This document shows positions 27,519 through 30,074 of a stretch of 43,140 bases of DNA, one piece after another. Under the pieces are notes generated by a model. The model was not told the origin of the DNA. It worked only from the letters and a program-made list of their open reading frames with translations, and made no database searches. A program made the translations under genes and the position numbers. How positions within the stretch are numbered: the first letter of the stretch is position 1; each line of letters starts with the position of its first letter. This DNA comes from an uncultured Nitrosopumilaceae archaeon (lineage in GTDB: Archaea > Thermoproteota > Nitrososphaeria > Nitrososphaerales > Nitrosopumilaceae): NCBI GenBank assembly GCA_937897875.1, contig CALCPD010000006.1, positions 1 through 43,140 of the forward strand, in the 5' to 3' direction.

Positions 27519-28091
27519 TTATTCTTTAATATTTTTTGCAGTGTAAATCATTCTTTGTATTAATGTAATTCCAGCTATTATCACTACGATAACAACTGCA
27601 TAATCCATAAAACCAATTATGCCAATTATTGCAATTACCAAAAGTCTTTCAGCCCTTTCACCAATCCCAATTCCTTGAAGTTTTATGTTAATTAAATCAG
27701 ATTTTGCCCTAGCATAACTAACTAACAAAGACAAAGTGATTGCAAGCAATACAAGATATGGTTCGGCATATCCACCAACTAAAATTCCTAAAAAGATTGC
27801 AACTTCAGAAATTTTATCAAACATTGAATCAAGGTATTCACCTTTTTTGGAAGTCTTGCCAGTTACTCGTGCCACCTGACCGTCAACCATATCAAAAAAT
27901 CCTGAAACAAGTAACAAAATACCTCCAATAATTAATCCAAATTCCATACCCATACCATAAACAACAGCAGAAGCTAATGCAATGATGAGACCTACAACAG
28001 TCCAAAAGTTTGGAGATAATCCAGTTGCAGCAAATCCTTTTCCAACCTTTTCAAGTGCAGGACGAAGAGATTCACGTAAATTATTTAACAC
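27519..28091 (-). CDS. CDP-alcohol phosphatidyltransferase (archaetidylinositol-phosphate synthase-like)
   Basis: The signature D-G-x2-A-R-x8-G-x3-D-x3-D is complete: FDMVDGQVARVTGKTSKKGE with LDSMFD after it. Multiple hydrophobic spans follow (ISEVAIFLGILVGGY, YLVLLAITLSLLVSYA, LLVIAIIGIIGFMDY and one more). Such enzymes transfer a phospho-alcohol to CDP-archaeol to make polar lipids; archaetidylinositol phosphate synthase is the likely activity. I start at GTG 28091 (MLNNLRESLRPALEK) because TAATAAAG (28114-28121) is centred exactly 26.5 nt upstream; an ATG seven codons earlier is the alternative. Confidence 0.88.
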   Translation of the reverse strand: MLNNLRESLRPALEKVGKGFAATGLSPNFWTVVGLIIALASAVVYGMGMEFGLIIGGILLLVSGFFDMVDGQVARVTGKTSKKGEYLDSMFDKISEVAIFLGILVGGYAEPYLVLLAITLSLLVSYARAKSDLINIKLQGIGIGERAERLLVIAIIGIIGFMDYAVVIVVIIAGITLIQRMIYTAKNIKE

Positions 28092-28113
28092 AAAATACAC
28101 CCAAAATACCATC

Positions 28114-28213: not shown

Positions 28214-28858
28214 TTATTTTTTCTTTCCTTGTTTATCAAAACCATCTTTGTTGAATCCATCTTTTTTGAAACCATCTTTGTTGAATCCAGCAGTGTTAAA
28301 CAAAGTATGAGTTACAAAGTGAGTACCATCTTTATCAAAACTATTTTTATCATACCCATATTTGTTGAATCCATCTTTATCATATCCTAGTTTGTCAAAA
28401 CCACCTTTATCAAATCCTTCTTCATTGAATTTTGTTCCAGTTGTTTCATAATTTCCATCTTTGTTTAATCCAGCAGTGTTAACTAAAGTACCAGTTGCTA
28501 TGTGAATACCACTTTTATCATATCCATCTTTATCATATCCATTTTTGTTAAATCCATCTGCATAATACCCATTTTTATTAAAACCATCTTTGTCAAATCC
28601 TTCTTCATTGAATTTTGTGTCAGTTGCTTTGTGATATCCATCTTTGTTGAATGGTGTTCCAGTTGCTTCATAATTTCCATCTTTGTTTAATCCAGAAGTA
28701 TTAACCAAAGTACCAGTTGCTATGTGAATGCCATCTTTATCATATCCATTTTCATCATATCCATTTCTACTGAATCCATCTTGATCATATCCTAGTTTGT
28801 TGAATTTTGTTCCAGTTGCTTTGTGATATCCATCTTTGTTGAATCCATCTTTACTCAT
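28214..28858 (-). CDS. Protein made entirely of 5- and 8-residue repeats
   Basis: After the initial Met the whole 214-residue sequence tiles without remainder into 31 pentads of the form (N/D)KDG(F/Y) and 7 octads of the form H-x-ATGT-x-(F/V): 1 + 31x5 + 7x8 + 2 = 214. Examples are NKDGF, DKDGY, NEEGF and the octads HIATGTLV and YEATGTPF. Octads bracket blocks of two or of up to seven pentads, and a larger unit of about 61-74 residues repeats. There is no Cys, signal peptide or membrane span. A Gly and an aromatic residue at fixed places every five residues suggest a regular coil or beta-solenoid, perhaps Ca-binding through the Asp/Asn. Function unknown; I do not recognise the family. Confidence 0.8.
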   Translation of the reverse strand: MSKDGFNKDGYHKATGTKFNKLGYDQDGFSRNGYDENGYDKDGIHIATGTLVNTSGLNKDGNYEATGTPFNKDGYHKATDTKFNEEGFDKDGFNKNGYYADGFNKNGYDKDGYDKSGIHIATGTLVNTAGLNKDGNYETTGTKFNEEGFDKGGFDKLGYDKDGFNKYGYDKNSFDKDGTHFVTHTLFNTAGFNKDGFKKDGFNKDGFDKQGKKK

Positions 28859-28929
28859 AACAGAATTTCATGAATGGGATTTAGTTAAGGTAACTAATTA
28901 CAAAATAACACGAGAATGCCCAAGTCAGA

Positions 28930-29201: not shown

Positions 29202-30074
29202 TTATTTTTGAGATAAATTCATTGCAATCATAGTAGAAATAATTTTTGCAGCTAATGATGCAGTAGCACCATTATCATGATATGGGTTTAATTCCACAAT
29301 ATCTATTCCAGTTACTTTTGTTTCTTCAAAAGAATGAATCATGTCAAATAGTTCCCTAGATGTTATTCCAACGGCTTCAGGATTTCCAACACCTGGGGCA
29401 TATGCAGGATCTAAAACATCAAGATCAAAACTAGAGTACACAGTGTCAAAAGTAGATACATGATCCTTAACTAATTGTGGCCCTTTACCATCTCTAACTT
29501 CCCTATCAGAAATTGTTTTAATTTTATTTTCAGTAAGAAATTCAAGTTCTTCTTGAACAAATGCTCTGGCACCAACATGTAAAATATTTTCAGCACCTCT
29601 TTCTTCAACAATTCTTCTCAAATAGGATGCATGGCTTAATTTGATATCTGCAAATTCATCACGTAAATCATAATGTGCATCAAAAACAACATACCCAGTA
29701 TTTTTTGGAAAACTAGTATACGTTCCATATGTAATGGAATGCTCTCCACCCAAAATGAAAAGTTGGCGCTGTTTTGCAACAAGTTCAGTAGTAATTTTTT
29801 TGAGCATGTCAATCATTTCTGATGCCACTACAGTATGGCGAGTATTTCCTAAATCTTCAATGTTTACAGACTCTAAATCAATTCCAAGGTCAGGATGAAA
29901 TATTTCAATATTGTTAAAAGAATCTCGAATTGCATCAGCTCCAAACCTACAACCAGGTTTGTATGAATGGGTAGCATCAAAAGGCACTCCAAAAATGGTA
30001 GCAATAGGCTCACCGCCCTCATCAGAACCAGTGATTAACGGATTTTTATTCATATACAAATCAAGAAAACTCAT
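29202..30074 (-). CDS. speB: Agmatinase/ureohydrolase
   Basis: A 290-residue ureohydrolase with the full set of manganese ligands: GGEHSITYG (His112), FDAHYDLRDE (Asp132, His134, Asp136) and SFDLDVLDPA (Asp217, Asp219), followed by APGVGNPEAVG. It probably hydrolyses agmatine to putrescine and urea; arginase or another guanidino-hydrolase is the alternative. thrS lies directly upstream (7 nt gap), so the pair is likely one operon. The putrescine product would feed spermidine synthesis, used by the deoxyhypusine synthase at 33118. Confidence 0.88.
   Translation of the reverse strand: MSFLDLYMNKNPLITGSDEGGEPIATIFGVPFDATHSYKPGCRFGADAIRDSFNNIEIFHPDLGIDLESVNIEDLGNTRHTVVASEMIDMLKKITTELVAKQRQLFILGGEHSITYGTYTSFPKNTGYVVFDAHYDLRDEFADIKLSHASYLRRIVEERGAENILHVGARAFVQEELEFLTENKIKTISDREVRDGKGPQLVKDHVSTFDTVYSSFDLDVLDPAYAPGVGNPEAVGITSRELFDMIHSFEETKVTGIDIVELNPYHDNGATASLAAKIISTMIAMNLSQK

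Follow-up and report, generated by a model that had tools for sequence, protein, structure and literature searches.

A 214-residue protein built almost entirely from two short repeat units is encoded in the window, a stretch of 43,140 nucleotides from an uncultured Nitrosopumilaceae archaeon (contig CALCPD010000006.1, in a genome bin of 1.22 Mb and 94 contigs). Its gene, on the minus strand at positions 28,214–28,858, specifies a Met, 31 pentads, 7 octads, and a terminal Lys-Lys before the stop codon. In appearance the product is closer to an extendable scaffold or spacer of repeats than to an enzyme or a demonstrated new fold. We tentatively regard it as a cytosolic, non-enzymatic tandem-repeat protein of one Nitrosopumilus lineage that would serve as a multivalent scaffold or spacer, extended and semi-flexible. 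This reading is the best supported because the protein has no apparent signal peptide or membrane segment, no catalytic match, a near-neutral charge, and a five-residue aromatic phase.

Parsing of the minus-strand translation into pentads and octads leaves nothing over (1 + 155 + 56 + 2 residues), confirming the exact tiling claimed by the initial annotation, which left out the strand. Stricter unit patterns tile 196 of the 214 residues, whereas 500 shuffles average 47 (sd 11, maximum 85). The consensus sequences first given for them, (N/D)KDG(F/Y) and H-x-ATGT, are looser than stated. Because the pentad columns vary—Gly at position 4 in 30 of 31 units (DKNSF is the sole exception), Asn or Asp at position 1 in 27, and Phe or Tyr at position 5 in 23—the former is a loose consensus. 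Among the seven octads, Thr4 and Thr6 are invariant, Gly5 is found in five, and position 1 is His in five and Tyr in two; HFVTHTLF and HKATDTKF depart from ATGT. Five residues is by far the commonest spacing of aromatics (20 intervals between successive aromatics), and the chain as a whole is hydrophilic (GRAVY −1.29, net charge −3, Gly 16.8%, aromatics 15%). With a maximum 19-residue hydropathy of 0.26, the protein lacks a hydrophobic segment; no signal peptide or membrane segment is apparent, which suggests a cytosolic location.

A second level of periodicity overlies the first. A 178-nt DNA repeat (family D1) occurs three times on the minus strand of the gene, at 28,627–28,804, 28,405–28,582, and 28,222–28,399, with spacings of 183 and 222 nt (61 and 74 codons); the 13-residue excess of the longer super-period equals one pentad plus one octad. 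Taking the middle copy as reference, the first shows 83% identity and the third 65%, the latter carrying a divergent DKNSF pentad and a THTLF octad that are both kept in orthologs. The two-level periodicity proposed at the outset is therefore present, and these repeats, together with the unit maps of orthologs described below, bear out growth by repeated duplication.

Nitrosopumilus orthologs (L036–L043) share 68–91% identity with the protein in the best segment, and every one with readable flanks lies between the same two neighbors: an agmatinase/arginase-family gene upstream (29,202–30,074) and a CDP-alcohol phosphatidyltransferase-like gene downstream (27,519–28,112), both on the minus strand and named from sequence rather than by family search. 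Among eight orthologs, dN/dS lies between 0.11 and 0.49 in all pairs. On the strength of these ratios, the synteny, and the upstream conservation, the 214-aa open reading frame is a real gene under purifying selection. An ortholog is held by 6 of the 37 searched genomes of the genus. Eleven other congeners examined at the locus have no repeat gene, with 86–602 bp between the two neighbor genes; the gene is therefore either a lineage-restricted gain or has been lost in the others.

Ortholog length ranges from 134 to 235 aa, the differences being mainly whole repeat units. In unit maps of eight orthologs, the opening pattern ppOpppppOppO is kept, in lengthened form in L041, as is a closing module that combines the octad H(x)VTHTLF with a divergent pentad, DKN(N/S)F. 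The middle is present in the window protein, L036, L037, L039, L040, and L041, and absent from L042 and L043. With the ends retained and the middle gained or lost, change has thus been mainly by whole modules. In L040, one residue was lost within an octad, and one octad has Cys in place of His.

Conservation among orthologs is strong over roughly the last 50 bp ahead of the start codon and does not extend to more distant intergenic DNA. In the alignment this proximal region, at 28,859–28,912 on the minus strand (TTATTTTGTAATTAGNTACMTTAACTAAATCC...ATTCTGTT-ATG), is conserved in all eight orthologs and carries an AT-rich TTAACTAAA about 25–33 bp before the ATG; it is likely the core promoter. 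An exact copy of the motif occurs nowhere else in the genome, and matches with three mismatches occur at control level. Farther upstream, the intergenic segment 28,921–29,185 holds AT-rich direct repeats (ATTAAGCAGCTAATAAGCAC-like; 45-nt family D4), which are almost intact in L043, related in L036 as TGCCTATTAGG variants, and not seen in L037 or L039–L042.

Searches of Pfam, NCBIfam, PHROGs, and PDB sequences with the 214-aa protein returned nothing above cut-off, a catalytic domain included. The initial annotation had set the protein apart from the A(D/N)LxX pentapeptide repeat, and rightly so: neither Pfam nor NCBIfam gave a match above cut-off, and no pentapeptide model matched in Pfam up to E = 10. 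The two share a five-residue period, but that family, which folds as a right-handed quadrilateral beta-helix, wants a small residue at i−2 and Leu or Phe at i. The 214-aa protein fails this; with Phe/Tyr taken as i, 20 of the 31 pentads have Asp or Asn at i−2, and Gly falls at i−1. The best weak NCBIfam match was TIGR02953, the pentapeptide MXKDX repeat, which likewise has a five-residue unit with KD, although that unit, as its name gives it, has no phased Gly-aromatic pair; membership was rejected at 16.6 bits, below the curated cut-off of 41. No Ca2+-binding model (EF-hand/dockerin/RTX-like) matched in Pfam up to E = 10. Judged by title, none of the searched papers that print the repeat's letters was relevant. 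Repetitive-motif families without an assigned function are mentioned in the genome paper on Candidatus Ichthyocystis, and these were not matched to the present loci.

The units are not unique to this protein: no library model names them, and they are widespread in bacteria and viral contigs. Both (D/N)xxG(F/Y) arrays and HxxTGTx(F/Y) octads occur (seven octads in the 214-aa protein). Bacterial records with the repeat are labelled Bacillota/Clostridia, Elusimicrobia, Endomicrobia, Nocardia, Gammaproteobacteria, Ca. Ichthyocystis, Phycisphaerae, Campylobacterales, Cetobacterium, Kapaibacterium, and Delongbacteria; 12 plasmid-collection records and eight loci on IMG/VR viral contigs carry it as well. 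A tblastn search against phages gave no match, a weak negative because low-complexity filtering masks such queries. Of 61 bacterial/viral repeat ORFs, 16 contain octad-like units, 51 in all where shuffling yields about 0.7; the two-unit grammar is therefore common to archaeal and bacterial/viral repeat ORFs, and may reflect descent, transfer, or convergence. Bacterial KDGY-array proteins (Clostridia L044–L049, Phycisphaerae L054, Cetobacterium L082) have the same pentads and an octad-like GIHKxTGTKYD, with about 31–51% identity in the best segment, but are larger and often bear extra domains; no family name for them turned up.

In bacteria, repeat arrays adjoin domains of three kinds, OmpA (L076), TrbI (L062), and DnaJ (L064), and in Cetobacterium (L082) an array follows PelG in one reading frame; the arrays thus occupy positions suiting a spacer. 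A zinc-ribbon domain lies beside the array in L052 and, weakly, in L080. The domain-fusion argument for a spacer comes from bacteria, the archaeal 214-aa protein having no fused domain.

Several of these loci have further features of their own. The TrbI/VirB10-family protein at L062:3737-5515 has its GYD pentad array ahead of the TrbI domain; because of this fusion, a link to the repeat region of Legionella DotG was considered, and it found no support in the searched literature. On a 70-kb IMG/VR contig (L099), and also in L101, four neighboring paralogous ORFs of 366–444 aa combine a conserved N-terminal domain (no Pfam match in the one ORF tested) with a terminal pentad array whose length varies per ORF. 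The clostridial-type L044, L045, L047, and L073 have in common a C-terminal region of about 120 aa after the array, for which Pfam gave no match. Nitrosopumilus or marine thaumarchaeal repeat proteins (L027, in the G014:C23 cluster, and L080) carry HKITGTKYD or HKVTGTKFD octads, and the C-terminal end of L080 is a Cys4 zinc-ribbon-like segment.

We infer the scaffold or spacer role from the repeat anatomy, the selected gene, the whole-unit length changes, and the bacterial arrays beside folded domains. Along a chain of Gly, Asn, Asp, and Lys whose net charge is close to zero, a Phe or Tyr at every fifth residue would supply evenly spaced contact points, possibly stickers; the octads (His-x-Ala-Thr-Gly-Thr-x-Phe) may serve as joints or punctuation. 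Gain and loss of whole units would set the array length, with unit sequences held by purifying selection. Against a plain spacer, the DKN(N/S)F and VTHTLF units are position-specific and conserved.

A less likely alternative is that the pentad arrays form an unsolved regular coil or solenoid, with each pentad making one turn motif and perhaps with Asp/Asn-bound Ca2+, in which the octads act as breaks or hairpins. Phased Gly and aromatic residues are in keeping with this, but no Ca2+-binding family matched in Pfam. AlphaFold2, run on the 214-aa protein with its orthologs, gave a mean pLDDT of 45.4 and a pTM of 0.29, with no residue at or above 90 and 120 of 214 below 50; a structure search of the model returned no PDB match with E ≤ 0.001. 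The new regular solenoid of the initial annotation was thus not borne out for this protein. Disorder throughout, named there as the refuting outcome, largely describes it by pLDDT and by charge-hydropathy (H 0.357 against a boundary of 0.418, on the disordered side), with the prediction for a paralog pointing the other way.

A 251-aa paralog (MGLFDKFSKTFDKFGYDLDGYD...) lies at another locus of the same genome, G000:C65:6259-7014, where neighboring genes give no functional clue. Like the 214-aa protein, it has (D/N)KxG(Y/F) pentads, belongs to the same genus, and lacks a signal peptide; unlike it, it consists of nearly pure pentads after a short N-terminal helix, with one degenerate octad (GIHxxTKIxFD). 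With 11 sequences aligned, the model of the pure-pentad paralog L056 reached a mean pLDDT of 85.0 (121 of 250 residues at or above 90), but a pTM of only 0.40 and almost no assigned strands; confidence is low mainly over the N-terminus and the octad-like stretch GIHIATKIAF. This confident regular model favors order and counts against the semi-flexible scaffold. A structure search gave no PDB match with E ≤ 0.001 and weak viral-library matches only, so the coil fold, if real, would be new. AlphaFold2 yields overconfident, unrealistic models for near-perfect repeats, with a bias towards beta-solenoids (PMC11795689); the nearly strandless paralog model may not be the beta-solenoid of that bias. 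The pLDDT of 85 leaves room for an ordered pentad coil, but such scores are unreliable for near-perfect repeats. Taken together, the predictions neither prove a solenoid nor make disorder certain. The broader proposal, a new regular coil of pentads with hinge octads that would act as a length-tunable rigid spacer across archaea, many bacterial phyla, and viruses, seems unlikely.

A hydrophilin-like stress protectant, that is, a disordered, Gly-rich, hydrophilic protein acting against osmotic, cold, or drying stress, is improbable. The glycine content, the GRAVY value, the charge-hydropathy position, and the monomodular, apparently cytosolic form in archaea would suit such a role, but strictly phased aromatics at 15% are unusual for hydrophilins, and neither a known stress family match nor stress-gene neighbors were found. 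Less probable still is a multivalent protein that binds a ligand, or buffers metal, through His/Thr octads and Asp/Asn pentads: the five His-initiated octads, the invariant Thr4 and Thr6, and the octads kept in bacterial relatives are offset by the change of His to Tyr in two octads and to Cys in one of the ortholog L040, by the lack of a match to a known metal motif, and by octad conservation that fits a structural turn equally well. Low-complexity DNA open by chance, as AT-rich repeats with no database family might suggest, is ruled out by dN/dS well below 1, with orthologs open end to end, a conserved start and proximal upstream region, and in-frame whole-unit indels.

As an individual, the 214-aa protein is one more short-tandem-repeat protein; the two-unit class to which it belongs is nameless in the searched libraries. 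The class marks an annotation gap: the repeat spans archaea, many phyla of bacteria, and viral contigs, yet the searches of Pfam, NCBIfam, PHROGs, and PDB turned up no entry for it. Orthologs of 134–235 aa at one locus provide a ready length series, and the class as a whole offers a natural test of whether structure predictions made with confidence for short, near-perfect repeats can be trusted.
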